Source of the DNA: Xanthocytophaga agilis | GTDB lineage: Bacteria; Bacteroidota; Bacteroidia; Cytophagales; 172606-1 | Direction of reading: 5' to 3' | Assembly: GCF_030068605.1 (NCBI RefSeq) | Contig: NZ_JASJOU010000006.1 | Span: 248,001 to 312,000 of the forward strand | DNA: 64,000 nucleotides | Part shown: positions 35,545-49,367 of the stretch, piece after piece | How the letters are laid out: the number at the start of each line of letters is the position of its first letter | Numbering within the stretch: position 1 is the first letter of the stretch | The notes under the pieces: generated by a model | What the model was told of the DNA's origin: nothing | The model's database searches: none | Seen by the model: the letters and a program-made list of their open reading frames with translations, nothing else | Translations under genes and position numbers: made by a program

Positions 35545-38160
35545 ATGAGACTGTGGACGTTTACACTTCTTATTGCTATTTACTTTTTCTACAGTCAGAC
35601 AAGTATTGCCGGAGGGATACGTGGTACTATCAAGAATACCAAAGGGGAAGTTATGCCTTATACCTCTATTCTGGTAAAGAATACAAGTATTGGGACAATG
35701 GCGAATGAAGATGGAAAATACGAAGTTACCCTGAAACCAGGAACTTACGAACTTCAGTTTCAATACCTCGGCTATCAGGTTTTGAATAAGTCAATTGAGG
35801 TGGGTGATGAGTATGTGACTGTGGATGTTACTATGCAGGAAGCCGTAGTACAGCTCAATGAAGTAAAGGTGGGTTCTTCAGATGAAGATGCTGCCTATAC
35901 TATCATGCGGAAAACTATTAGCATGGCACGTTTTCATATGCTGGAAGTAGATAGTTGGTCTGCCAGAACCTATGTAAAAGGTACGTTCCGTGTTATTGAT
36001 GTTCCGTTTCTGCTGAAAGGGGCGCTTAAGAAAAACAACATTCAGGTAGGAACCACCTATGTGCTGGAATCTATTAATGAAATTAGCTTTCAGCAGCCTG
36101 ACAAAGTAAAAGAAAAGGCTGTTTCTATCCGTTCTAATCTCCCTCCTGGCACACAACCTGCTATCAACTTTGCTCAGCTAAATATCTATCAACCTGCTTT
36201 CTTCGGAATTATTCTGCCACTTTCGCCTAAGGCTTTTAACTATTACCGCTTTACGTATGAAGGTGGTTTTGAAGAAAACGGAAAATGGGTGAATCGAATT
36301 AAGGTAACTCCTAAGATCAAAGGACAAAATGTAATAGAGGGTTCTATTTATATTGTAGATCAGTTATGGAGTATTCATAGTTATCGATTTAAGTTTACAG
36401 ATGAAAATGGTATAAACTATAATCTGCAACAGATCTACAACCTGACACAGGATGTCTGGATGCCTATACAATCAGAGATTACTGTAAAAGCCAATCTATT
36501 TGGAGCGGAGGGAGAAGCTCGCTATGTGACCTCTGTACGAAACTATCAGCTTAAAATCAATCCGAAATACCATCAGCAGCCGGTAGTAGTGGACGAGAAG
36601 ATTGATAAAGAAAAGGCTGCAGAAGTACGAAAACAGAAGATCAATACAGAAACAGCTCTGAAACAGAAAGAATTGACCCGAAAGCAATTGCGTCAGTTAA
36701 GCAGAGAAATGGAAAGGGAAGATCGAAAAGAACGCAAAGAACGTGGAGAAGATGTGACTGTAATGCGGGATTATTCTTTTGATGTAGATACACTTGCCAG
36801 AAAAAGACCATCCTCATTCTGGGAAGATGAGAGACAAGTCCCATTAACAGATACAGAGATCAAGGGATATAAACAGGCTGACAGTCTTTACAAAGCCAAT
36901 GAAGATAAGATAAAGAAAGATTCCATTAAAAGTCTGCCTCGTTTTCGGCTTACTCATTTGATTTTTGGACATACCTATAACTATGGAAAACAACCAGAAA
37001 ACGAATGGTATCCGCGTACTTTTTCTTTTGACTCTCCTTTATTGAACCTGAATAATCCGGATTATTTTATCTGGAACAATGTGGGTTTTTTCAATACAGT
37101 AGAAGGAACAGTTTTAAGAACACGGATGAGATATACAGAACGAGTGAATAAAGATTCACGATGGAGTCTGGAAGGTAATCTCAGGTATTCTTTCGAAAGA
37201 AGCCATTTAAATGGGGGATTGCAGTTTTCGAGAGGAAACCAACAACAGTCATTTTCTATATCAGCTGGACATAATATATTTCAGTTCAATGCTAATAATC
37301 CCATTCCGGAAGGAGTCAATACTGTGAATACCTTGTTGTGGGAGCGGAACTATATGAAAATATATGAAAAAACATTTGCCAGTGTACAGTGGAACAAACG
37401 CTTTACTGAAAAAGTCTCCTTTTCTACGTCAATTGCATTCGAACATCGTGATCGATTAGTAAACAGAACTGAATACAGCTGGTTTGATTTTAAAAAACGT
37501 GAGTTGACCAGCAATGATCCAAGTAATATTGAATTGCAGGATCAGACGGCTTTCCCTGATCATAATGCCTGGATATGGGCTAGTTCTTTAACTATCCGGC
37601 CATTTGCAAAGGCTGGTATTTATAATGGTCGTCGTTATTTGATTAACAATAACTCTCCTGTGTTTACAATCAACAACCGATCAGGGTTTGGCGATGTACA
37701 TTTTAACCAGCTGGAGCTTAGTGTGAATGATGAATTTCGCTTTTTAAGAGGTGGATTCCGTTATCTGATACGTGGCGGACTGTTCTACGGACCACAAAAG
37801 CCCAATTACTTAATGGATTTCAAACACTTTAATGGTAACCAAACACGGTTCCAGCCTGAAGGATTTGACTTCTTCCGTCTTTTGGACTACTATAACTATT
37901 CTACCACACATAATTATTTACAGGCACATGCCAGTCAGCAGATTAATCGTTTGCTGTTTACGCAGTTTACTTCTCTGCGATTGTATGGCATCCGTGAAAA
38001 TCTTTTTGTGAATGCCTTACTGACTACTAAAACCAATGTGTATGAGATCGGATATGGATTCAGAGGTTTGTTAAAAATCCTGGGAGCTGAAGTCGTAACT
38101 ACTTTTCAAAATGGAAAATATGTGCAGACGGGCTTCCGTTTGAGGTTAGGCTTTAACTAA
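35545..38160 (+). CDS. DUF5686 outer-membrane protein with carboxypeptidase-like regulatory domain
   Basis: 871 residues. Signal peptide (MRLWTFTLLIAIYFFYSQTSIA), then a CarboxypepD_reg-like beta-sandwich (about 24-110: GTIKNTKGEVMPYTSILVKN, ending in VQLNEVKVG). The rest is the DUF5686 region, with a charged, Lys/Glu-rich linker (about 350-410) and a long C-terminal part rich in alternating aromatic strands that ends GFRLRLGFN, typical of an outer-membrane beta-barrel. TonB-dependent-receptor-like in layout but without a clear plug. Function unknown; DUF5686 proteins are widespread in Bacteroidota. Confidence 0.88.
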   Translation: MRLWTFTLLIAIYFFYSQTSIAGGIRGTIKNTKGEVMPYTSILVKNTSIGTMANEDGKYEVTLKPGTYELQFQYLGYQVLNKSIEVGDEYVTVDVTMQEAVVQLNEVKVGSSDEDAAYTIMRKTISMARFHMLEVDSWSARTYVKGTFRVIDVPFLLKGALKKNNIQVGTTYVLESINEISFQQPDKVKEKAVSIRSNLPPGTQPAINFAQLNIYQPAFFGIILPLSPKAFNYYRFTYEGGFEENGKWVNRIKVTPKIKGQNVIEGSIYIVDQLWSIHSYRFKFTDENGINYNLQQIYNLTQDVWMPIQSEITVKANLFGAEGEARYVTSVRNYQLKINPKYHQQPVVVDEKIDKEKAAEVRKQKINTETALKQKELTRKQLRQLSREMEREDRKERKERGEDVTVMRDYSFDVDTLARKRPSSFWEDERQVPLTDTEIKGYKQADSLYKANEDKIKKDSIKSLPRFRLTHLIFGHTYNYGKQPENEWYPRTFSFDSPLLNLNNPDYFIWNNVGFFNTVEGTVLRTRMRYTERVNKDSRWSLEGNLRYSFERSHLNGGLQFSRGNQQQSFSISAGHNIFQFNANNPIPEGVNTVNTLLWERNYMKIYEKTFASVQWNKRFTEKVSFSTSIAFEHRDRLVNRTEYSWFDFKKRELTSNDPSNIELQDQTAFPDHNAWIWASSLTIRPFAKAGIYNGRRYLINNNSPVFTINNRSGFGDVHFNQLELSVNDEFRFLRGGFRYLIRGGLFYGPQKPNYLMDFKHFNGNQTRFQPEGFDFFRLLDYYNYSTTHNYLQAHASQQINRLLFTQFTSLRLYGIRENLFVNALLTTKTNVYEIGYGFRGLLKILGAEVVTTFQNGKYVQTGFRLRLGFN

Positions 38161-38470
38161 TAAGTAATTTAATTAACTTTAAACCACTTATTTCTATCTT
38201 CAGGATAAGTGGTTCCTCTGCAGAGTTGTTTCATCATATCTGGGCTATCCCGTTGTCACTGACAACTATAATACATTATCTACTAAATCCTTCCTTTAGT
38301 CATGGCTTTCCGTACCGGAGGCTGATCTCTAATTTCTTTGTGTGTTAATTAAGATAAATGCTTCATTTTTAATTTTTTAAAGTGGAGATAGGTGGCCTCA
38401 ACCTACAAAATACTAGCTTTACATAAGTTGTTATCTGGTTGTTTTATTCATCTGTAACCTAAACACTAGC
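38161..38470. other. Intergenic region before the GH172 gene
   Basis: 310 bases, no gene. A hairpin at 38182-38214 (AACCACTTAT with ATAAGTGGTT) probably ends the DUF5686 transcript, although no T-run follows. A short palindrome, GTTGTCACTGACAAC at 38252-38266, could be a regulator site. Confidence 0.5.
38182..38214 (+). terminator. Hairpin after the DUF5686 gene
   Basis: 10-bp stem, 13-base loop, no T-run on the plus strand. Confidence 0.45.
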
Positions 38471-39610
38471 ATGAAAAGCATTTCGTATCTTCTAGGGCTT
38501 GCCTGTTTTCTTTGTGTGTCCTCTTTTACTTATGGACAGAAATTTAATGGACTTGATACACATATGGGAAACTTGTACCGTACATCTGATGCCAAGACCC
38601 GATCTATCAGCCCAGAGAATTTTACAGGAGAAAAAGGTAAGGGAGGAATGGCTACAGAAGGTACAGGAAAGCATGCGTCGCAAGATCTGGGACAAGGCTG
38701 GAAGGTAAGTCCCAGTGTGGAGATAAAAAGCAAGACTACCTTTACACTAGCAGAAATAACAGGGCAAGGAGCTATACAACATATCTGGATGACGCCAACA
38801 GGCAAGTGGCGCTATTCTATCTTACGTATCTACTGGGATGATGAAAAAGAGCCTTCTGTAGAGGTTCCTGTCGGAGATTTCTTCTGCATGGGATGGCAGC
38901 AGTATGCACCCATTACGTCACTGGCTGTAGCGGTAAATCCGGGAAGTGCGTTTAACTGCTACTGGACTATGCCTTTTCGTAAAAAATGTCGGATTACGAT
39001 GGAGAACATTGCCAATGAATCCATGATGTTATATTATCAGATTGATTATACCCTTACAGATATTCCGGATGATGCAGCATACTTTCATGCACAGTTTCGT
39101 AGGGTGAATCCCCTACCCTACAAGCAGGTATATACTCTGTTGGATGGTGTAAAAGGCAAAGGGCAATATGTGGGGACATACATAGCCTGGGGTGTAAATA
39201 GCAATGGCTGGTGGGGCGAAGGAGAAATGAAGTTTTATATGGATGGGGATAAAGATTTTCCTACTGTCAATGGAACCGGACTGGAAGATTATTTCTGTGG
39301 TTCCTATAACTTTGATAATAAAGGAAAATACCAGGAGTTCTCATCTCCTTATACAGGCCTGCATCAGGTAATCCGACCTGATGGATTGTATCAATCTCAG
39401 CAACGGTTTGGTATGTACCGCTGGCATATTACAGATCCGATTCGGTTTGATAAAGATCTTAGGGTAACTGTACAAGCACTGGGATGGAGAGATGGCGGGC
39501 GTTATCTACCATTAAAGGATGATATCTCATCGACTGTGTTCTGGTATCAGACGGAGCCGCATGCCACTTTTCCGAAACTACCTACCAAGGATGAACTGGA
39601 AGTGAATTAG
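38471..39610 (+). CDS. DUF2961 / glycoside hydrolase family 172-like secreted protein
   Basis: 379 residues with signal peptide MKSISYLLGLACFLCVSSFTYGQ. DUF2961 features: an early IWMTPTGKWRYSILRIYWDDEKEPSVEVPVGDFF region, the NCYWTMPFRKKCRI strand, and GTGLEDYFCGSYNF, where the Glu belongs to the acidic active site described for this family. Known members (GH172) act on D-arabinofuranose linkages or difructose anhydride and form jelly-roll oligomers. Here it is a stand-alone gene without SusCD partners, so the natural glycan is unknown. Confidence 0.85.
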   Translation: MKSISYLLGLACFLCVSSFTYGQKFNGLDTHMGNLYRTSDAKTRSISPENFTGEKGKGGMATEGTGKHASQDLGQGWKVSPSVEIKSKTTFTLAEITGQGAIQHIWMTPTGKWRYSILRIYWDDEKEPSVEVPVGDFFCMGWQQYAPITSLAVAVNPGSAFNCYWTMPFRKKCRITMENIANESMMLYYQIDYTLTDIPDDAAYFHAQFRRVNPLPYKQVYTLLDGVKGKGQYVGTYIAWGVNSNGWWGEGEMKFYMDGDKDFPTVNGTGLEDYFCGSYNFDNKGKYQEFSSPYTGLHQVIRPDGLYQSQQRFGMYRWHITDPIRFDKDLRVTVQALGWRDGGRYLPLKDDISSTVFWYQTEPHATFPKLPTKDELEVN

Positions 39611-39617
39611 TACTCAC

Positions 39618-39643
39618 ATGTTCTAAATTAAAACTTAGAACAT
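39618..39643. other. Short hairpin after the GH172 gene
   Basis: ATGTTCTAA pairs with TTAGAACAT; lies just ahead of the main terminator. Confidence 0.4.
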
Positions 39644-39660
39644 CTACTGGTTATACAAAG

Positions 39661-39692
39661 AAAATGCCTGAAACTACATCTTCAGGCATTTT
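39661..39692. terminator. Bidirectional terminator
   Basis: AAAATGCCTGAA pairs with TTCAGGCATTTTT, with T-rich sequence on both strands. Between the GH172 gene and the convergent sulfite reductase. Confidence 0.88.
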
Positions 39693-39716
39693 TCTATTTT
39701 GAAGATATTATACACT

Positions 39717-41846
39717 CTATGCTTCCTGCATGATCATACGCTGACGGGCAGCTACAACCTGCTCATGGAAACGAATGGCATCCTGCATATAGCTTGTGGC
39801 AAATGCTTCAGATGGTTCATTTTCGTTGATTTGCAGAATATACGTTTTAAAATCAGTAGGTAGTGTAATGGTACCTGTCTGGACAGCATGTGTATCAAAA
39901 TCTTTCATAATGCCATGCTGTGAGTTACAGTTTACATTCTGAGTTAACAGAAATGCTTTGGCAGAGCTAACCATAGCGGCATAACTATGGTAGATGCTGT
40001 CGGCGTAAGCTTGTAATTCGAAGGCTTCCTTAGCCCAGGCTAATTTCTCCTCAGACTCATAGAATAAGGTTGATACCAGGTCAATTACCACTCCTGCACA
40101 CTCTCCTACACCAATTGCTGTTTCAAAGTTTTCTGTTTTGCCCCAGTCTACATAATCCAGTGGAGACAGGTTATCCAAATTCGCCAGTGGTTTCAGCAGT
40201 TTATAGAAGTAGTCTTTGCCCTGACGACGGTAGTAGTTGTTGAAATATTCACCATCCGCTGCATTGGCTTCGTAGTCATTGATTAACCAGCGCAATACAT
40301 CCGGACCACGACGACTTGGAACTTTGATCACTTTGTCACCGATACTTCCTATTCCATTTCCTTCTATACCACCACCCAGCATCACCTGAAGAGCTGGCAA
40401 TACCGCCGCACCTTTCTTTACAGAACTTCCATGGAAGCCTATCTGACAGGCACTATGCTGCGCACAACCATTCATACATCCACTAATTTTGATTTTGATA
40501 TCCTGGTTGTGAATCAGATCCGGATACTCTTCGTTCATTACACGTTCCAGTTCTGCACTGATACCTGTACTGCTGGAGATTGCCAGGTTACAGGTATCCG
40601 TTCCCGGACATGCAGTCACATCAGCTGTGCTATCAAATCCTGGTTCTGCCAAGCCAATTTCGTCCAGAGCTGCAAATACATATGGCAGGTATTCCGGACG
40701 TACATATTTCAGGAGTAAACCTTGGTTAACAGTTACCCGAACATCATCTGCTGCATATGTCTCTACAATAGGAGCCAGCTTGCGAACTATCACAGTAGGA
40801 ATATCCCCCAGATGTACTTTAATCTGTACACCATAAAATCCCTTTTGCTTTTGCTCGAATACGTTGGTTGCATACCAGTCTTTGTATTTTTTCGTGGCAG
40901 TAACCTGTACAATGTCCAGTGATTTAGCACTTTCCGGAATATTGTTTTCAGGCGCAGGCTCTGGTTGTCCTACTGTAGTAGTGTCAACCTGGAAAGTTTT
41001 GTTTTTCAGTGCCTTTTGTTCTTGAGCTACCAGTTCCATGAAGGTTTCAAATCCCAGTTCTTCAATCAAAAACTTAAGGCGGGCTTTGTGACGGCGGTTC
41101 CGCTCTCCATATCGGTCAAAGATACGTACTACCCCTTCTGTAAAAGGAATAAATTTATCTTCTTCCAAAAACTCATAGGCCACAAATGCCAGATAAGGCT
41201 GTGCGCCTAATCCTCCGCCAAGCATTACCTTAAAACCGCGAACTTCTTTGCCATTTTCGATCTTTACTTTTGGAATCAGACCGATATCGTGCATGAAAGT
41301 AAAGCCTGTATCTTTATCGCTGCTTGAAAATGCTATTTTGAATTTACGACCTAGTTCCTGACTAATAGAATTCCGAAGGAAATACCGGAACATCGCGTCT
41401 GCATAAGGTGATACATCAAATGGCTCTTCCGGATCAATACCTGCATTGGCTGAAGCCGTTACATTACGAACCGTATTACCACAAGCTTCACGGATTGTGA
41501 TATCATCGTGTGCTAGCTTTGCCCATAATTCAGGTGTTTTGTCCAGACTTACAAAGTGAATCTGTACATCCTGACGGGTAGTCAGGTGCATATTTCCGGT
41601 TGCATATTCATCAGATACATCAGCAATCCGTAACATCTGTTTGACAGTCATTTTACCAAATGGCAATTTGATACGGATCATCTGTACACCGGGCTGACGC
41701 TGGCCGTATATACCACGTACCAATCGTAGACTACGAAACTTCTCATCGTGGATTTTTCCTTCACGAAAAAGCGCGATCTTTTTTTCCAGATCAATGATCT
41801 CTTTTTCAACCAGCGGGTTCTCCAGTTCGGTTCGGAAACTTTGCAT
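39717..41846 (-). CDS. Assimilatory sulfite (or nitrite) reductase with HEPN tail
   Basis: 709 residues. Siroheme/4Fe-4S enzyme reducing sulfite to sulfide. Two ferredoxin-like and two siroheme domains are visible; the cluster ligands are C413 and C419 (ACPGTDTCNL) and C457 and C461 (SGCMNGCAQHS). The last 140 residues (about 565-709) are helical, with YHSYAAMVSSAKAFLL, and resemble the HEPN-like extension found on Bacteroidota sulfite reductases. Sulfite and nitrite reductases share these motifs, but the upstream leader peptide with three Cys codons argues for sulfite and cysteine synthesis. No cysH, cysD or cysN genes adjoin it. Confidence 0.92.
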   Translation of the reverse strand: MQSFRTELENPLVEKEIIDLEKKIALFREGKIHDEKFRSLRLVRGIYGQRQPGVQMIRIKLPFGKMTVKQMLRIADVSDEYATGNMHLTTRQDVQIHFVSLDKTPELWAKLAHDDITIREACGNTVRNVTASANAGIDPEEPFDVSPYADAMFRYFLRNSISQELGRKFKIAFSSSDKDTGFTFMHDIGLIPKVKIENGKEVRGFKVMLGGGLGAQPYLAFVAYEFLEEDKFIPFTEGVVRIFDRYGERNRRHKARLKFLIEELGFETFMELVAQEQKALKNKTFQVDTTTVGQPEPAPENNIPESAKSLDIVQVTATKKYKDWYATNVFEQKQKGFYGVQIKVHLGDIPTVIVRKLAPIVETYAADDVRVTVNQGLLLKYVRPEYLPYVFAALDEIGLAEPGFDSTADVTACPGTDTCNLAISSSTGISAELERVMNEEYPDLIHNQDIKIKISGCMNGCAQHSACQIGFHGSSVKKGAAVLPALQVMLGGGIEGNGIGSIGDKVIKVPSRRGPDVLRWLINDYEANAADGEYFNNYYRRQGKDYFYKLLKPLANLDNLSPLDYVDWGKTENFETAIGVGECAGVVIDLVSTLFYESEEKLAWAKEAFELQAYADSIYHSYAAMVSSAKAFLLTQNVNCNSQHGIMKDFDTHAVQTGTITLPTDFKTYILQINENEPSEAFATSYMQDAIRFHEQVVAARQRMIMQEA

Positions 41847-41930
41847 GATATTATAAAAATTGGGATGTTATTAATTGCATTTACTTAAACTGTCACTTCT
41901 GTTCGAAGACTTTTGTTTGTTGATAGCACT

Positions 41931-41966
41931 AGTAAAAAATAAGCCCTTTACAATGGCAAAGGGCTT
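41931..41966 (-). terminator. Attenuator terminator in the sulfite reductase leader
   Basis: On the minus strand AAGCCCTTT pairs with AAAGGGCTT and is followed by ATTTTTTA. It sits about 85 bases ahead of the gene it precedes, in the sense direction, so it must regulate it by premature termination. Confidence 0.85.
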
Positions 41967-42000
41967 GTGTTAGAATATAAAATATTGGATAGCAAGCCCT
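41960..42000 (-). promoter_or_regulatory. Antiterminator pairing of the sulfite reductase leader
   Basis: On the minus strand AGGGCTTG (42000-41993) is the exact complement of CAAGCCCT (41967-41960), which is the 5' arm of the terminator. The two pairings exclude each other. AGGGCTTG also sits in a small hairpin (41989-42005, ATAGCA with TGCTAT). Confidence 0.75.
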
Positions 42001-42001
42001 G

Positions 42002-42058
42002 CTATGACAATTCAGGACAACAACAAGACTTATATATATATTTTGCTACTATGTTCAT
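42002..42058 (-). CDS. Cysteine-rich leader peptide (attenuation)
   Basis: 18 codons from ATG at 42058 to TAG at 42002: MNIVAKYIYKSCCCPELS. Three consecutive TGT codons stand eight codons from the end, counting the stop. The stop codon overlaps the hairpin that contains the antiterminator strand. When Cys-tRNA is scarce a ribosome stalled on the Cys codons would leave the antiterminator free; when Cys is plentiful a ribosome at the stop would cover it and allow termination. The AT-rich, SD-less start region is normal for this phylum. Not an independent protein gene. Confidence 0.8.
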   Translation of the reverse strand: MNIVAKYIYKSCCCPELS

Positions 42059-42267
42059 GTTTCTATTTAGTCTATAAACTTAATGAGGTTTTATGTGCAA
42101 ACAAAATATCTATCCATTTTTTTTAAGAAAATGGGATAGAGAAAGTATAAGTTATGAGAAAAATTTAATTTAAGCAATAAAAAACAAAAAACTCTTTAGA
42201 ATTCTCCATAGGTATACTATACAATGCTTTTGTCTGAAATAGCGAAGATGGAAAGATTTCAAAACAT
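42059..42267. other. Upstream part of the sulfite reductase control region
   Basis: AT-rich, no gene. It should hold the promoter; TTTG followed after 21 bases by TATAGACT on the minus strand is a weak candidate. An imperfect hairpin (CTATCC...GGGATAG) lies at 42110-42139. Confidence 0.45.
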
Positions 42268-42302
42268 AAGATCCTATGCTCTATTAAAAAGCATAGGATC
42301 TT
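42268..42302 (-). terminator. Terminator of the M48 peptidase gene
   Basis: AAGATCCTATGCT pairs perfectly with AGCATAGGATCTT (13 bp). T-rich sequence follows on the minus strand. Confidence 0.8.
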
Positions 42303-42362
42303 ATACTGATAGCTACATCTAATATCCAGAATTTGAAAAATAATCTCTTCACAGAAAATCAG

Positions 42363-44480
42363 TTAAGCTGAAACCTCAGATTGGTTGAGAATATCTTTCT
42401 GTACAGTCATCAGATGCTTGAATGATTGGTCAAACATTTCACTGCCTTTGCCCAGTATATCATAGGATTGATGTATAAACTGATTGTACACCTCTCCTGT
42501 AAAGTCAGTAAGTACATTCGTCAGAGGCTCTTGAAGCAGTTGTGTGCGCAACGTAAACTGGTTGGGATTGGGTGCAGGCTGAACCAGTTTTTCTGAATCC
42601 AGCAGTATTTGTTCCAGATTGCCGTGCAGTGAAATCGTTTCTTGTTTGAGTTGATTGAAGTTATCTTCTACCCAGTGTTGTTGCAATGATGCCCAGTACT
42701 GTACCATTTGTAATCGGGAGCGAAAATCCATCAGTTTCCGAAAGAAAGTCTGCAGCTCCAGATGATTCTTCATGGCCTGTTTGTATACATCGGCTTGTTC
42801 CTGAGATTGCTCTAATGCTTTGAGATAATAAAATCGGAATACAGTTTCATCCTGACGCTGCATCCATTGTTGCTGCTCTTGTACCTCCTGCTCTAATTGA
42901 GTAAATAAATGGTTACTGTCAGAAACGTGGTATTTCTTTCCATCAAAATCAAAGGTGCGGGCTTGTGTATGACCATCACGTAGATTGGCTAGTATATCCA
43001 GGTCGTTTCGGTTATTGTTGTATGAAGTTATCTTCTCTTTTATTTCGTCAGTAAAGAGTTTGTTGATAGTGGAAGGTACAGACAATGTTGTGTTTTGTAA
43101 TGATGTCTCTACATCAAATAATTCCAGATAGCGATTGTCATAATAATCATTATACATTGGATCGGGCTGTTCCTTCTGTATATAGTCCACAATCATTTGC
43201 TGAGCTTCATCTGCCTGCTTTTCTTCGCCCTTTTCTGCTTCAGAAATTTCTGTGCTATACAGCAATTTGGTTAGTCTTTGTTGAATGGCTTCTACGTTGC
43301 CAAACAGAACCCAGGGAGATTGTTGGTCAATGACCGTATCTACAGGTGCTCTGAAGATATTGGCTTCCCGTTCTGATAAGCTTGGGTGTGAAGCCCATTG
43401 GTCTTTGATATACACACGTGATGCCTGGGTATGTTTTTTCAGCATTTCGTCAGTGATAACCGGAAGATTGTCAACCTGTTGTAGTTGAAATGCATTTGCC
43501 AGATAAGCAATCATACCTTTGTGATTCACAAAGGCATTGTTAGTATGAATTTTCTCCTCTGCCAGACGGTTTAGTTGATGTATGGTGGATTGATAAGCCG
43601 AACTACCAAATTCTATTCTACGTAATGCACTACTGATGGCTTTCGAACCTGCCAGGCTAACAGCTATTGAATCTGCATGGTATTCCATTTCCCGCGACAG
43701 GCTCATATAGGCCAGATTTATTTGTTCAAATGCCTTGCGTAAAATCCAGCGAACGCCCTGAACCAGACGGAACGTAATAACTGCGAACCAACTGAATACA
43801 CCTCCAACCTCTGCCCACTTGACAAGCGTAGCATCCCAGTTATCATATTCATAGATCAAATCATACAGAATGTGATTGACAGTGTATGTATAGCTACCCA
43901 GCTTCATACTACGTTGTGAAAAATGACCAAACTCGTGAGCTAATACAGCCTTGAACTCACTTATATTTAGTGAATTTACCAGTCCTAAACCTATTTCAAG
44001 ATTTTTTGACACAGGAAAAAACAGGCTTAAAAAGCTGGAGTTGTAAAACACACAAGCGTTAACGTCCGGACTCAAAAACACACTTTTGGGTTTAGGTGCT
44101 TTCACATCGGTAGCCACCTGATAAATAAAGGCGAATAACTCAGGATAGTCTTTTTCAAAAATTTCTACCCGTTGAGGATTTTCGTTGTGTCGGGTTTTAA
44201 AGATGAACTTAATCAGAAACCAGCAGAACATAACGGTTAAGGCTACTATACCCCCACCAGCCCCTATGGTTAGTAAATTAACGCGTAGGGAAATGATAAA
44301 AAGGCCTACTATAACTCCATAATAGAGCATAAAGACAGAGGCTACAAGTAGAAGAATGTATAGTAAGATAAAGAGCACAATACCTACCATTACTTTGCCA
44401 ATATTGGCAGCATAGGCTTTGGATGGTTGTGTCAATGAAGGGGGAACATTCTGAGGAGAGGGTGGGTAAAACAGAGACAT
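42363..44480 (-). CDS. M48 family membrane metalloprotease
   Basis: 705 residues. Two or three N-terminal helices (about 28-115) place it in the membrane. The zinc motif VLAHEFGHFSQRS (HExxH) is near residue 185, and the third ligand Glu is in SREMEYHADSIAVSLAG near 265. The C-terminal 350 residues are mostly helical and hydrophilic with long Gln/Glu-rich stretches (LEQEVQEQQQWMQRQDE), unlike the short HtpX/Ste24 enzymes. It probably degrades membrane or periplasmic proteins. The gene stands alone between a terminator and the foldback repeat. Confidence 0.88.
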   Translation of the reverse strand: MSLFYPPSPQNVPPSLTQPSKAYAANIGKVMVGIVLFILLYILLLVASVFMLYYGVIVGLFIISLRVNLLTIGAGGGIVALTVMFCWFLIKFIFKTRHNENPQRVEIFEKDYPELFAFIYQVATDVKAPKPKSVFLSPDVNACVFYNSSFLSLFFPVSKNLEIGLGLVNSLNISEFKAVLAHEFGHFSQRSMKLGSYTYTVNHILYDLIYEYDNWDATLVKWAEVGGVFSWFAVITFRLVQGVRWILRKAFEQINLAYMSLSREMEYHADSIAVSLAGSKAISSALRRIEFGSSAYQSTIHQLNRLAEEKIHTNNAFVNHKGMIAYLANAFQLQQVDNLPVITDEMLKKHTQASRVYIKDQWASHPSLSEREANIFRAPVDTVIDQQSPWVLFGNVEAIQQRLTKLLYSTEISEAEKGEEKQADEAQQMIVDYIQKEQPDPMYNDYYDNRYLELFDVETSLQNTTLSVPSTINKLFTDEIKEKITSYNNNRNDLDILANLRDGHTQARTFDFDGKKYHVSDSNHLFTQLEQEVQEQQQWMQRQDETVFRFYYLKALEQSQEQADVYKQAMKNHLELQTFFRKLMDFRSRLQMVQYWASLQQHWVEDNFNQLKQETISLHGNLEQILLDSEKLVQPAPNPNQFTLRTQLLQEPLTNVLTDFTGEVYNQFIHQSYDILGKGSEMFDQSFKHLMTVQKDILNQSEVSA

Positions 44481-44932
44481 GTATTTTAGTAGTAAAATTG
44501 ATAACTCGCTTTTAATACCAAAATAGCAACAGATGTAAATATATGTAGAAAAAAAAAAGAGTGTGTAAGAATGTGCTTTTTTGTTAAGTTACTGTGAGTT
44601 ATGAATTACGAAGAAACGGATATAGGATTGCATATCTCATGGCTACTCTGTACGAGGTCAGAAGGGTAAGAAGCGGGTCGGTTGCGGGTCAGATGTAAGC
44701 CATTGGTAATCAGCTAGGGTAAGAAAGGGTAAGAATATTTTCTATACTACGTGTGTTATATATATAATATAAAAAGAAAATACTAAATATAGCATATACT
44801 AACCCTTTCTGTTCCTATTCTTCTGCTACCGTTTAGCCCTAAAATACCTACCCTTCTTACCCGCATTGATTATCAATCACTTAGATCTTGCCCGCAACTT
44901 ACCCGCATCCGACCCTTCTGACCCCTTAGCGT
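44481..44932. other. Intergenic region holding the foldback repeat
   Basis: 452 bases, no gene. 44481-44650 is AT-rich and should contain the M48 promoter. 44656-44923 is the long inverted repeat. Confidence 0.6.
44656..44923. repeat. Foldback element with about 85-bp imperfect inverted arms
   Basis: The left arm (44656-44741) and the right arm (44841-44923) match when one is reverse-complemented: shared blocks include GGTCAGAAGGGT, GCGGGT, TTGCGGG, AGAT-TAAG, ATTG-TAATCA and GGGTAAGAA. Roughly three quarters of positions agree. The 100-base centre is AT-rich. GGGTAAGAA-like units also repeat in tandem inside each arm. No ORF of any size is encoded. It resembles a MITE-like or other foldback element. 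Confidence 0.75.
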
Positions 44933-45976
44933 CTATTTGCTTGAAACAGTAACTGTATAAGTAACTACATAATCTCCATTAAAAAGTATGTGTACTACAT
45001 ACGTTCCTTTGTGGGTAAAGACATAATCTATTGTAGTAAGTCCTTCAGCGTCTGTGTATAGTTTCGGATAGACAGAAATTGTTCGGCTGCCCTGTACAAG
45101 CTGTAGCTCTACTTTTTTTATTTCCAGACCGCTTCCTTTATTAAAACGAAAAGAGAACTTTTCTCCTTTTGTGGCTGTAGCAGTAAACGTTTCCGGGTAA
45201 ACAGGTGAAGCATTATATGAAAATAGTTTTTTATAAATGAGAGGACCATTTAGGAATTGGTGTAACGTCGGTTTTTCTTTCAGCAAAGTCCAGGCGGTAT
45301 CCAACGGATAATGATTGCGAACAAACAATGCCGGAGGAGCCAGGAAATAGGCTTCATCAAATTGAGAGATAAATTGTTTTTGTTCCGAATCAATCACCCC
45401 ACTAGACCAGGTGGCGTCACAGAGATACCATTGGTTGGCAAGATACACGGCATTCCAGGAATGATTGGGTATGCCTGTACCACCAATGTTTGCATCAACG
45501 GTTCGTCCATAACCATCTATTATTTTGCAGGTAATACCTGCCTGAAAACAGAGTTCTTTAACCAGATACGCATAGCCGGAGCAAATGGTCTTATGATCAT
45601 GCAGTAGTCGTCGGAAGAAATAAGGATTGGATTGTTTATTCCACTGCTCAAGTTCTTCCGGTTTATCATTTAGTTTTTCCCGTTTCGCTTTATTTTTTAC
45701 ATAGAAGCTATAGTCGCTTTCAATGTTGTCACATACCCATCTGAAAATAGCTCTGAACTTATCTACATCCGTATCCAGAGGTTTGGTGAGTTTATCTGCC
45801 AGTTCTTTTAAGTTGATAAGCGAATGATTGGGATACAGAGCAGCCATACTATCTGCCTTGGCAAAATCATTCGCTTTATCATCTGTAATCTGGGCCTTCA
45901 GATTGAAAGAAAAACAGAAGCAACAGGATAGTATAAGAAGGGTACTCTTTACAGGAAGCCAGGAAAAAACAATCAT
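44933..45976 (-). CDS. Secreted transglutaminase-like protein
   Basis: 347 residues with an N-terminal signal peptide (STLLILSCCFCFSFNLKAQ). The transglutaminase-core triad is visible: Cys in KTICSGYAYLVKEL, His in PNHSWNAVYL, Asp in YLCDATWSSG. The C-terminal 90 residues look like a beta-sandwich (TYVVHILFNGDYVVTYTVTV). It may cross-link or cleave peptides in the periplasm or at the surface. Its ATG overlaps the stop of the preceding gene (TGATG), so the two are translationally coupled. Confidence 0.87.
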   Translation of the reverse strand: MIVFSWLPVKSTLLILSCCFCFSFNLKAQITDDKANDFAKADSMAALYPNHSLINLKELADKLTKPLDTDVDKFRAIFRWVCDNIESDYSFYVKNKAKREKLNDKPEELEQWNKQSNPYFFRRLLHDHKTICSGYAYLVKELCFQAGITCKIIDGYGRTVDANIGGTGIPNHSWNAVYLANQWYLCDATWSSGVIDSEQKQFISQFDEAYFLAPPALFVRNHYPLDTAWTLLKEKPTLHQFLNGPLIYKKLFSYNASPVYPETFTATATKGEKFSFRFNKGSGLEIKKVELQLVQGSRTISVYPKLYTDAEGLTTIDYVFTHKGTYVVHILFNGDYVVTYTVTVSSK

Positions 45977-46698
45977 CAGAATATAGACTTTACCTTTTGC
46001 CAGAAGTTACTCAGACCAGAAGGTTTAGCTTGATAATGATTATCTACAGCTACTGCACCCATTAACGGAACAATATCAAGAGATAAAGTCATTTCAAATG
46101 TAGTTGGTATATTTTTAGTGATAACATATTCCCGCATTTCATATCCAATAAAGCTAAAAATCAAAACATCTCCTTCTTTTAAGTCTTTTGGAAACTGAAA
46201 CCTTCCTGTTGCATCTGTTGATGTACCAATGGAGGAACCCTTCAGAACGATACTTACTCCAGGAAGAGGTTCATTATTATCTCCTTTTACTATACCTCCT
46301 ATCGTATGACCAGGATTATCTGAGATGTCTTTTTCTGTATGTTCTTGTGGTAACTGAACAGATGTAAATGTTTTTTCTGCCAGGTTTTGAGAATAACTGT
46401 GCTTACCTGCAAAAAGCAATAGTAAACCCAAAGCTCCAGCCTGAACCAGGCTTCGGCGGGGACGTGTAACAGACCGATTTTTTACGACATAGGTTTTCAA
46501 CTGATCCGGGCGGAAGCGGCCACAGGTGTAAGCAGGTTTGTTTTTGAAAAAATCCAGTACCTCCTGATCACTCATTTGGGTAAAATCAATTACGTTTTTA
46601 CTACAGGAACTACAGAAGCCACCCTGAGAGGTAGGTGTAAAATGTTCCCATTTTTCAGTACATGGATTGGCGACAGATAAGGAGATCATATTTTTCAT
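45976..46698 (-). CDS. Membrane protein with cytoplasmic Cys-rich N-terminus and carboxypeptidase-like regulatory domain
   Basis: About 240 residues from the ATG at 46698 (MKNMISLSVANPCTEKW), favoured because homologues of this type start so. Earlier in-frame Mets at 46719 and 46737 lack support. Residues 10-65 contain four Cys (NPCTEKW, GGFCSSCSKN, YTCGRF), perhaps a zinc site. One helix (ALGLLLLFAGKH) follows, then a CarboxypepD_reg-like domain outside the membrane (IGGIVKGDNNEPLPGVSIVLKG). It is coupled to the transglutaminase gene. The layout suggests a sensor or anchor; the role is unknown. Confidence 0.78.
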   Translation of the reverse strand: MKNMISLSVANPCTEKWEHFTPTSQGGFCSSCSKNVIDFTQMSDQEVLDFFKNKPAYTCGRFRPDQLKTYVVKNRSVTRPRRSLVQAGALGLLLLFAGKHSYSQNLAEKTFTSVQLPQEHTEKDISDNPGHTIGGIVKGDNNEPLPGVSIVLKGSSIGTSTDATGRFQFPKDLKEGDVLIFSFIGYEMREYVITKNIPTTFEMTLSLDIVPLMGAVAVDNHYQAKPSGLSNFWQKVKSIF

Positions 46699-46863
46699 AA
46701 AAAGACCAGGTTTTTTCATAGAAGATGCCTGATCCACACAAATTCCATAAAATATATTGTAGAAATTCTATGATTTTATGGATCTCTAAAGTATGATTAT
46801 ACTAAAAGTCTGAGAATGAATCATAACTTTCAATAGATGATATTCTTTCAAAATAAGGTCTCA

Positions 46864-46916
46864 TAAAAAACTCGTCCTCCTGTAGTATGCCATACATAGT
46901 TACAGGAAGACGAGTT
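46864..46916 (-). terminator. Terminator of the oligopeptidase gene
   Basis: AACTCGTCCTCCTGTA pairs with TACAGGAAGACGAGTT (one mismatch), with a six-T run following on the minus strand. Confidence 0.9.
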
Positions 46917-46958
46917 AAGGTAATTCAAAAAGGCAGATCGTACAAGATCCAGTCTGTT

Positions 46959-49367
46959 TTAGTTAACGGCTGCTTTCTTTACATACGTATCCAGCCATTT
47001 ATCCATTTCCCACAACATATGAAGAATAGATTCTTTGCCACGATACCCATGACTCTCATAGGGAAGCACTACATAACGGGCAGTGCCTCCATGGCCTTTG
47101 ATGGCGTTGTAATACCGTTCACTCTGAATCGGAAAAGTTCCTGGATTATTATCCGCTTCTCCATGAATCAGCAGTATAGGGGTCTTGATTTTATCGGCAG
47201 AACTGAATGGTGACATATTAAAATATACATCTGGTGCCTGCCAGTAGGTTCTTTCTTCTGCCTGAAATCCAAATGGTGTCAGTGTACGGTTGTAAGCTCC
47301 GCTTCGTGCAATTCCTGCTTTAAAGAGATTGCTGTGTGATAGTAGATTGGCAGTCATAAAGGCACCATAAGAGTGTCCCATTACTCCTACACGTTTGGCA
47401 TCTACCACACCTAACCGGACTCCTTCGTCAATGGCTCCTTTGGCTCCGGCAACGAGTTGTTCAATATAGGTGTCATTGGGTTCTTTAGTCCCTTCTCCTA
47501 CAATAGGAATAGACGCATTTTCCATGATAGCATACCCTTGAGTGGCCCAGAATACAGGTGAGCCCCAGTAGATATAGGTAAACTGATAAGGTGATCCGGT
47601 TACTTGTCCGGCTGCATCTTTGCTTTTAAATTCTGTAGGGTAAGCTTCCATCAGTGTAGGCAGCGGACCATCTTCTTTCTTATAACCTGCTGGCAGATAT
47701 AGAGTAGCGGATAGTTCCACACCATCGGCACGTTTGTATTTGAGCAACTGTTTCTGTACATCTTTCATCTGCGGATAAGGGTGTGCGAACTGAGTAACAG
47801 CTATAGGGGCTATACGGGCTTTCAGGTTGCGTATAAAGTAGTTGGGGTTTTCTGTCAGTGATTCGCGACGAGTCAATAATACCTGTTTTTTGAGATCCAG
47901 AATAGCTACAGGTACTTCATAATAGGGCGCTGCAGAACGCCACAGGCGAGTACTTTTCTTCGTGCTCAAACTAAGTAAATCGACAAACGGGCGATCTCCT
48001 TCCGGTGACGCACCTTGTCCAGTCATGATTAAGTTATTATCTACAATTTCCAGTACATAGCGGCCATACTGGTTTTTAGTTAATTCAGGCGAACCGGGAT
48101 TATTGTAGGTATCTTCATACGAACGGTCAAAAAGAACAGTCGTTGCTTTGGTTTTAGGATTCAGGATTGTGGTTATCTCTTTACGGGTAGACCACCAGCT
48201 TTCACTTACTAAGGCCAGATTATCATTTCCCCAGCGAATGCCATCAAAGCGAAGTTTGGTTGAGGCTAGTTCGTCCGCATTGCCTGTAAACGGAGCAGAT
48301 AGTGTAAATACTTTATCTCTGACAGGAACGTCGTTTTTAGGGTCGCCATTGTCCTGTGCTTCAATCCAGTATAGCGTTGCCGGAGCATCACTGCGCCAGT
48401 TGTGTTCACGTTGTCCTGTACGGGTAGCACTGAAACCAATAGGGATATTGTCGGCCAGTGGTACATCGGCCAGTTGTTTTACCAGATTGGCCTTGCTATC
48501 CAGTAGCTCTATTTTGTGAGGAAATAACCGTACTGTTACCAGATAAGAATACGGTTTGTGATAGGTCTGAAATAGAATATATTTTCCATCTGGAGAAGGC
48601 TGATAATTCTGAATAAGAGCAGGTTTACCCAGCTTTTCGACAGCAGCCGTTTTAACATTAATTCTGGTAAGTTGTGCGGTAGCATAATAATCAAATAAGG
48701 CTTCGTCATAAGGGCTTTTCAGCAGATCCTGATAGGTACGGGAAGGGGCTTTTTTGCCGAGGTTCTCCTGTACAATGGGACCGCTAGGCACTTTGGGGGC
48801 TTCGGGTAGTGCGCCTCTGGTATCAGGCACAGACAGAACCAGAAGATGTGTATTATCTGATAACCATATAAATGGAGTAGTTAATACACTGTTGATTCGT
48901 GTAGTTGTTACTTTGTGGGCGGCGGCAGTAGCTACATCCAGTACATACAACTGAATATTTTCTCCTTCTGTTACACAAAACGCAATCTGGGAGTCATCCG
49001 GTGACCAGCTTACATTAGAGATAAGCGGATTCTGAGGCAGTCCTGTTACTGGCATATCCTTTCCTGTACGAATGTTTTTCAACGAAAGACCTGTCAGATA
49101 ACTCATCCGGCTTGGTCCATTGTTACGGGGATTGATCCGCAGGCCTGCAATACGAAGCTCCGGTTCTGCCAGCTCTGCTATTCCCGGATAACTGGCTGTC
49201 TGCATGATCAGCATCCAGTTTCCCTTGGTGTCAATACTGACACGTGGAGTAGTAGGTGCATTGATCAGATCCGCAATAGCTTTAGGTGGGGTTTGGTAGG
49301 TAAGGTTATCCTGAGCAACAAGCTGAAGCCCTATCCACCATACCAGGAGAGATAGATATTTTTTCAT
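46959..49367 (-). CDS. Secreted prolyl oligopeptidase family serine peptidase (S9)
   Basis: 802 residues with signal peptide MKKYLSLLVWWIGLQLVAQ. N-terminal part (about 40-520) is a beta-propeller with repeated strand pairs (ISNVSWSPDDSQIAF). C-terminal alpha/beta hydrolase: Ser in VGVMGHSYGAFM, Asp in HGEADNNPG, His in YESHGYRGK near 773. Closest in style to glutamyl endopeptidase/acylaminoacyl-peptidase-like members. Periplasmic peptide degradation is the likely role. It has a strong terminator and no operon partner. Confidence 0.9.
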   Translation of the reverse strand: MKKYLSLLVWWIGLQLVAQDNLTYQTPPKAIADLINAPTTPRVSIDTKGNWMLIMQTASYPGIAELAEPELRIAGLRINPRNNGPSRMSYLTGLSLKNIRTGKDMPVTGLPQNPLISNVSWSPDDSQIAFCVTEGENIQLYVLDVATAAAHKVTTTRINSVLTTPFIWLSDNTHLLVLSVPDTRGALPEAPKVPSGPIVQENLGKKAPSRTYQDLLKSPYDEALFDYYATAQLTRINVKTAAVEKLGKPALIQNYQPSPDGKYILFQTYHKPYSYLVTVRLFPHKIELLDSKANLVKQLADVPLADNIPIGFSATRTGQREHNWRSDAPATLYWIEAQDNGDPKNDVPVRDKVFTLSAPFTGNADELASTKLRFDGIRWGNDNLALVSESWWSTRKEITTILNPKTKATTVLFDRSYEDTYNNPGSPELTKNQYGRYVLEIVDNNLIMTGQGASPEGDRPFVDLLSLSTKKSTRLWRSAAPYYEVPVAILDLKKQVLLTRRESLTENPNYFIRNLKARIAPIAVTQFAHPYPQMKDVQKQLLKYKRADGVELSATLYLPAGYKKEDGPLPTLMEAYPTEFKSKDAAGQVTGSPYQFTYIYWGSPVFWATQGYAIMENASIPIVGEGTKEPNDTYIEQLVAGAKGAIDEGVRLGVVDAKRVGVMGHSYGAFMTANLLSHSNLFKAGIARSGAYNRTLTPFGFQAEERTYWQAPDVYFNMSPFSSADKIKTPILLIHGEADNNPGTFPIQSERYYNAIKGHGGTARYVVLPYESHGYRGKESILHMLWEMDKWLDTYVKKAAVN

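Follow-up and report, generated by a model that had tools for sequence, protein, structure and literature searches.

A candidate cysteine-codon transcription attenuator before a siroheme reductase gene of Xanthocytophaga agilis and related leaders in the Bacteroidia

Attenuators of the trp and his type combine a leader open reading frame (ORF) that carries codons for the product with a protector helix between segments 1 and 2, an antiterminator between segments 2 and 3, and a terminator between segments 3 and 4, with the stop codon of the leader at segment 2. For cysteine, Canestrari is said to have described, in 2020, "polycysteine leaderless sORFs" of mycobacteria. Upstream of cysS in Rhodobacterales, the element uORFC-8-2 has two tandem Cys codons in a stem and an intrinsic terminator, and the section devoted to it proposes attenuation by Cys-tRNA (PMC8632094). 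Runs of Cys codons in short ORFs have also been described for the cys operons of Mycobacterium and P. acnes and for cbs of B. longum; Cys leader peptides before sulfur genes of Actinobacteria are already in print, as the initial annotation of the present locus had noted; for the Mycobacterium cys regions, the relevant passage reports no conserved terminator hairpins and suggests Rho (PMC1262725). Two leader-ORF attenuators in series, responding to ATP and proline, precede mgtCBR of Salmonella, a "singular example" of such a pair of different signals to its authors (PMC3641672). Within the Bacteroidota, signs of leader-peptide attenuation precede amino-acid operons of F. psychrophilum, in a passage where Cys is not named (PMC9723704), and excerpts on B. 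thetaiotaomicron mention short ORFs reminiscent of leader peptides (PMC7366714). A term search of the main text of PMC4833913 returned no mention of cysteine or sulfite, and among the matches listed in the open-access literature we found no Cys attenuator from the Bacteroidota.

Here, we describe a locus of Xanthocytophaga agilis in a stretch of 64,000 nucleotides (contig NZ_JASJOU010000006.1, positions 248,001 to 312,000), which we refer to as the window and by whose positions coordinates are given. Compared by description with uORFC-8-2, its leader has three Cys codons, at positions 12 to 14, together with a terminator.

The leader region and its predicted switch

The gene that the leader would regulate occupies 39717 to 41846 on the minus strand and encodes a siroheme reductase of 709 amino acids from the nitrite/sulfite reductase family, with Pfam matches to NIR_SIR (3.6e-42), NIR_SIR_ferr (3.5e-35), and a C-terminal HEPN domain (2.6e-06). 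NCBIfam models for NirA and for sulfite/nitrite reductases also matched the protein, all below their curated cut-offs. The initial annotation had called it a sulfite reductase; Pfam upholds the nitrite/sulfite family, and the curated cut-offs for either enzyme were not attained. Because none was reached, we infer the "sulfite" label: the protein would be an assimilatory sulfite reductase, probably a supplier of sulfide for cysteine synthesis, and the choice of sulfite over nitrite draws in part on the Cys leader itself. A convergent gene of the DUF2961 family adjoins the reductase gene at 38471 to 39610 (Pfam), and an M48 peptidase gene (Pfam) lies upstream on the minus strand, ending at 42363.

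All elements of the leader lie on the minus strand. The ORF (42058 to 42002) translates to the 18 codons of MNIVAKYIYKSCCCPELS, closes with a TAG stop (42004 to 42002), and contains three consecutive TGT codons for Cys (codons 12 to 14; 42025 to 42017), which also form part of segment 1. Segment 2, AGGGCTTG (42000 to 41993), is the putative 5' strand of an antiterminator and sits within a weak hairpin (42005 to 41989); a ribosome at the stop codon would cover it. It is the exact complement of segment 3, CAAGCCCT (41967 to 41960), which is common to antiterminator and terminator. The intrinsic terminator (41966 to 41931; -15.1 kcal/mol), made of segments 3 and 4 plus a T-run, is sense to the gene and reads AAGCCCTTTGCCATTGTAAAGGGCTT followed by ATTTTTT. 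Its stem spans 41966 to 41941, and about 85 nt separate the T-run from the reductase ATG at 41846. The ORF with its Cys triplet, the strong sense-strand terminator with its T-run and distance from the ATG, and the segment at the leader stop that exactly complements the 5' arm of the terminator had all been claimed in the initial annotation, and each was recovered by direct reading and translation. The small hairpin that it had drawn at the stop (ATAGCA/GGGCT/TGCTAT) exists, but it is weak (-4.3 kcal/mol) and a minor element. A stronger protector, unmentioned there, is the pairing of the Cys-codon segment with the segment that holds AGGGCUU, a duplex of -14.4 kcal/mol that none of 100 shuffles equaled.

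These features are rarely produced by chance. When the 600 nt upstream of the gene were dinucleotide shuffled 2,000 times, a short ORF starting with ATG and containing three consecutive Cys arose in 5 shuffles, and one with three Cys of six in 34. For the segment after the Cys codons, pairing with the terminator arm yields -15.3 kcal/mol, and 0 of 100 shuffles reached the energy of this antiterminator. In Xanthocytophaga flavus the ORF has the same length and frame, and the Cys triplet and every RNA segment are retained, including the protector helix (again with 0 of 100 shuffles as good); the 5' half of the ORF contains most of the changes relative to the window leader. A simple scan of 41500 to 42800 identified a single terminator-like site, the leader terminator (shuffle mean 0.7). 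A more permissive scan added two hairpins, both before the leader ORF on the minus strand: a strong one with a T-run (42303 to 42267; -22.2 kcal/mol) and a weak one (42140 to 42109; -8.4 kcal/mol). The former probably terminates transcription of the M48 peptidase gene upstream and would bound the transcription unit.

The window element is very probably a ribosome-mediated transcription attenuator that senses charged tRNA-Cys. Its transcription start, the translation of its ORF, ribosome stalling, termination in vivo, and the response to Cys are predictions from sequence. Transcription would begin upstream of the leader ORF, with a ribosome following RNA polymerase. With Cys-tRNA plentiful, the ribosome would pass the three Cys codons, reach the stop, and cover segment 2 (AGGGCUUG); segments 3 and 4 would then form the terminator, and transcription would end near 41933. 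With no ribosome, the Cys-codon segment would pair with segment 2, and termination would be expected too. With Cys-tRNA scarce, the ribosome would stall on the Cys codons, the free segment 2 would pair with segment 3 (CAAGCCCU), the terminator would be blocked, and the reductase gene would be transcribed.

We folded half-made transcripts in which the ribosome was taken to cover about 12 nt on the 5' side of the P-site codon and 15 nt on its 3' side. For the window, the calculated probability that segment 3 is paired upstream was 0.79 to 0.80 with the ribosome stalled at Cys and 0.40 with the ribosome at the stop; for X. flavus, the corresponding values were 0.78 to 0.80 versus 0.09. At equilibrium, the complete leader keeps the terminator folded in each state that we computed, even with the ribosome stalled at Cys. 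The switch must therefore be kinetic, as is usual for attenuators, and it would work only if pairing of segments 2 and 3 precedes synthesis of segment 4, the order predicted when partial transcripts are folded. Thus, the exclusive antiterminator of the initial annotation, free under stalling and blocked at the stop, holds by computation for partial transcripts but not for the full leader at equilibrium.

Recurrence of the leader and of its pairing in relatives

To place the locus, we compiled 148 distinct upstream regions of the reductase gene from Bacteroidia, a non-random sample of 29 families plus one unplaced locus. Regions were taken from the best-scoring loci, up to 30 a search, and from 80 stretches chosen among the listed hits to cover many genera and families, a choice made without sight of their upstream sequence; one homologue search gave 209 hit genomes of 390 and another 93 of 395. 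Loci were left out for too little upstream DNA (L063), for a missing N-terminus (L087 and L090), or as copies of kept loci (L007, L008, L009, L011, L018, L066, L078, and L085). Gene starts were set from hit coordinates in 41 regions, and four regions were shorter than 600 nt. Terminators of relatives were called by a stem enumerator, and helix conservation was judged by partner-swap and shuffle tests.

Cys stood out among the amino acids. Short ORFs within 450 nt with at least four of six residues identical were found for Cys in 30 of the 148 regions, where shuffles gave 0.05 and the reverse strand 0. When all 20 amino acids were tested in this way, the next in number was Leu (13 versus 8.55) and the next by ratio was Met (4 versus 0.15). 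Within 600 nt, a leader with three consecutive Cys was present in 38 of 148 regions (shuffles, 0.6; reverse strand, 0), and a short ORF with at least three Cys in six codons was present in 55 of 148 (shuffles, 3.65; reverse strand, 4). Two consecutive Cys alone are weak evidence, being common by chance (63 regions; shuffles, 13.9; reverse strand, 21). Of 55 runs of at least three TGY, 53 lay in the Cys frame of an ORF from ATG to stop, and the other frames gave 5 and 5. Leaders with at least three Cys of six use both TGT (240) and TGC (140), and the Cys run is therefore not a simple repeat. A motif-free search for 8-mers recovered Cys-codon words, operator-like words, and terminator-arm words. 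A lack of conservation of the Cys run in relatives, which the initial annotation had named as grounds for refutation, was not observed: the run recurs in many families of the Bacteroidia. Among relatives it may be longer, shorter, or interrupted, and the unbroken triplet is not universal.

Leaders were coupled to terminators. A terminator lay within 130 nt of 60 of the 79 leaders with at least three Cys of six, compared with 9.3% of random positions in leaderless loci, and these 60 leader-terminator units represent 42 loci in 16 families. Leaders with only two consecutive Cys, which comprise eight units with a terminator in families f61, f62, and f66, were dropped, with an antiterminator signal in 0 of 8; their inclusion would bring the tally to 50 loci in 18 families.

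The pairing that would form the antiterminator is also found in the relatives. Across the 60 units, pairing between the segment after the Cys codons and the terminator arm of the same unit averages -15.3 kcal/mol, versus -8.6 kcal/mol for shuffles, with 45 units in the best 5% of shuffles and 15 outside it. Given partners from other families, the same segments reach a mean of only -10.8 kcal/mol. Own partners beat swapped ones in 15 of 16 families (Wilcoxon P = 0.00009); family f34 pairs worse with its own partners than with swapped ones, and f61 does equally well with both. Judged unit by unit, the own partner ranks with the best 5% of swapped ones in 18 of 60 cases (20 of 68 when the units with two consecutive Cys are included), a small share because segment 2 is often a variant of GGAAAGGC, which makes partners partly interchangeable. 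By both shuffling and partner swapping, complementarity between antiterminator and terminator arm is thus retained despite sequence divergence, and the loss of the exclusive helices that the initial annotation would have taken as refutation was not observed. The protector helix was rejected as a general feature, with 11 of 68 units at the 5% level.

Partial transcripts of all 68 units were folded in the same way. The mean probability that the terminator arm is engaged upstream was 0.75 with the ribosome at the first Cys codon, 0.72 at the last, and 0.47 at the stop; 32 units showed a calculated shift of more than 0.3 in the expected direction, and 0 showed one in reverse. The start of segment 2 is no more than 9 nt from the stop codon in 35 of the 68 units and lies at a greater distance in the rest; a ribosome that sits on segment 2 is therefore a model suited to the window but not to all of its relatives. 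All segments, their mutual complementarity, and the recurrence of the design in relatives can be read off directly, and these parts, pairings, and recurrences support the original interpretation of the element as a Cys-codon attenuator.

The same observations bear on two other accounts of the window. The terminator could be constitutive, or controlled by a protein or a metabolite in the manner of a riboswitch, with the Cys ORF incidental. Taken alone, the terminator is strong (-15.1 kcal/mol), and SAM riboswitches precede the same gene in one related genus, but a scan of 36000 to 48000 in the window returned only Rfam matches far below gathering scores and no match to the S-box (SAM) riboswitch RF00162. 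Together with Cys-frame ORFs that occur far above chance, coupled to terminators and to antiterminator complementarity, this makes an incidental ORF very unlikely. As for the peptides themselves, most have little in common, in length or in sequence, beyond the Cys run. A core of CxCWxWCC or near to it (e.g., RCACWFWCC) is common to families f14, f4, and f19 (L030, L031, L037, L038, L046, L086, and L089), whose peptides are here more alike than a plain Cys run would require. Such recurrence of Cys-rich short peptides, in part similar to one another, is what would be expected of a functional micropeptide, for example one that binds metal, whose own short mRNA is ended by the terminator. That account is extremely improbable: most of the peptides diverge outside the Cys run, and the RNA that follows the run is complementary to the terminator arm. 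Attenuation through Cys codons thus remains our reading of the window.

Promoters and distribution

An operator-like word, ATAGACTA (42075 to 42068 on the minus strand), precedes the leader ATG by 17 nt, near where the promoter is presumed to be. Since the 64-kb window holds one copy and about 2.5 are expected by chance, support for the word comes from its enrichment in relatives, where an ATAGAnTA-type word is found in 47 of 148 upstream regions (shuffles, 16.4). At leaderless loci it falls within 70 nt of the gene ATG in 24 of 39 instances. At leader loci, it falls within 70 nt before the first leader in 6 of 12 instances and within 70 nt of the gene in 1. These positions point to a transcription start upstream of the leader, and from them we infer a promoter upstream of the leader ORF. 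Our guess is that the word binds a regulator of the Rrf2 type. The word TAnnTTTG, which we take to be the -7 promoter element of Bacteroidota, occurs within 70 nt before 31 of 63 leaders (loci with at least three Cys of six or a terminator), versus 2.8 in shuffles. In 17 of these 31 cases it is 4 to 11 nt from the leader ATG, so near that some leaders may be almost leaderless; within 70 nt before the window ORF there is no TAnnTTTG word. In L103 and L114, Pfam identifies a gene for an Rrf2-family regulator immediately upstream of the reductase gene, and by eye L106 and L112 have one too. The gene next to the reductase in L103 and L114 encodes a tetrapyrrole methylase, as siroheme synthesis would need.

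Leaders were unevenly distributed among relatives. In the window's own family (Rhodocytophagaceae, according to the X. flavus record), the leader is present at four of eight distinct loci and absent from the other four; a homologue with 79% identity (L004/L078), from an incomplete genome placed in the window's genus, is without it. All 17 loci of family f12 and all 6 of f14 have a leader, and it is absent from all 25 loci of f10, all 9 of f74, and all 6 of f33. On a tree of 66 proteins, the presence of any scored Cys leader needs 10 changes, compared with a shuffled mean of about 21. The distribution is clustered but patchy: either the leader is old and has been lost, or it has been gained repeatedly. 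Such patchiness would show how readily attenuators are lost or rebuilt.

Among 58 loci of sulfur genes in the window's family (cysH, cysD, cysK-like, cysS, and weaker hits), only two had a Cys leader, namely, the cysS loci of the two Xanthocytophaga; the cysH, cysD, and cysK-like loci examined there had no such leader. A looser scan of 12 of these loci in full gave two more short ORFs with Cys (L163 and L167), neither of them on the sense strand before the gene. The short ORF just before cysS reads MLLNKYLDRCCCM in the window's genome and MILNKYHDRCCCM in the sister species, each followed by a stop codon (loci L214 and L213). It is possibly a second Cys leader, with no obvious terminator; because there are only two close sequences, support for it is weak.

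Composite leaders and comparison with known systems

Two leader-terminator units in series were found at 18 loci (L012, L013, L015, L080 to L084, L097, L099, L108, L119, L121, L124, L125, L131, L136, and L158), where each leader has at least three Cys of six and its own terminator; the window itself has a single unit. A second kind of composite carries the SAM riboswitch RF00162 before a poly-Cys ORF. It was detected in 10 of 53 distinct related loci scanned, comprising all nine loci examined from genus g77 as well as L088 (L016, L017, L019, L021, L022, L023, L025, L029, L032, and L088). RF00162 was absent from the 43 other scanned loci, some of which span only about 800 nt and one of which (L214) is a cysS locus. 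The poly-Cys ORF behind the riboswitch has up to ten Cys in a row, and by simple coordinates the aptamer ends 6 to 9 nt before its ATG (L016, L019, L022, L029, and L088).

In eight of the nine g77 loci, no terminator was called within 130 nt of either leader, and folding of the g77 alignment yielded no convincing consensus or clear terminator substitute, so other modes may operate in the group. Such loci would suit a Cys ORF that acts on translation or via Rho instead of through an intrinsic terminator. For the window, which has a full intrinsic terminator and an exactly complementary antiterminator, we judge that mode very unlikely indeed, and we keep to attenuation at the intrinsic terminator.

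It is possible, at slightly less than an even chance in our estimate, that the window belongs to an undescribed family of Cys attenuators of sulfite reductase genes that extends across the Bacteroidia and includes the tandem and the SAM-plus-Cys composites. If so, the response would be multiplied where two Cys attenuators follow each other on the same mRNA, and in the SAM composites translation of the leader may be gated by SAM, such that one mRNA would read both methionine/SAM and Cys status. More broadly, the attenuator suggests a mechanism, open to testing, by which many Bacteroidia may control sulfite reduction, and the tandem and SAM-plus-Cys relatives are naturally occurring cases for studying why several sensors are combined in one leader. 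A Cys leader also hints at which siroheme reductases of the family serve sulfite, a point left undecided by the sequence models that we applied.

The kind of mechanism is known, both from trp and his and in Cys versions from Rhodobacterales and Actinobacteria. The window has the same layout as attenuators of the trp and his type and differs from them by its use of Cys, its siroheme reductase gene, and its Bacteroidota host. By the features given in the section that describes it, uORFC-8-2 belongs to Alphaproteobacteria, stands exclusively before cysS, and has its Cys codons usually at 14 and 15, whereas the gene in the window is of the NIR_SIR type (PMC8632094). The Cys leaders of Mycobacterium, in the passage that treats them, are without conserved terminators, whereas the window has an intrinsic terminator and an antiterminator (PMC1262725). 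The two ORFs of mgtCBR, according to the account of that leader, sense different signals, whereas the 18 tandem relatives carry Cys runs in both ORFs (PMC3641672). Measured against these systems, it is the relatives with tandem or SAM-Cys leaders that stand out as unusual, more than the window itself.
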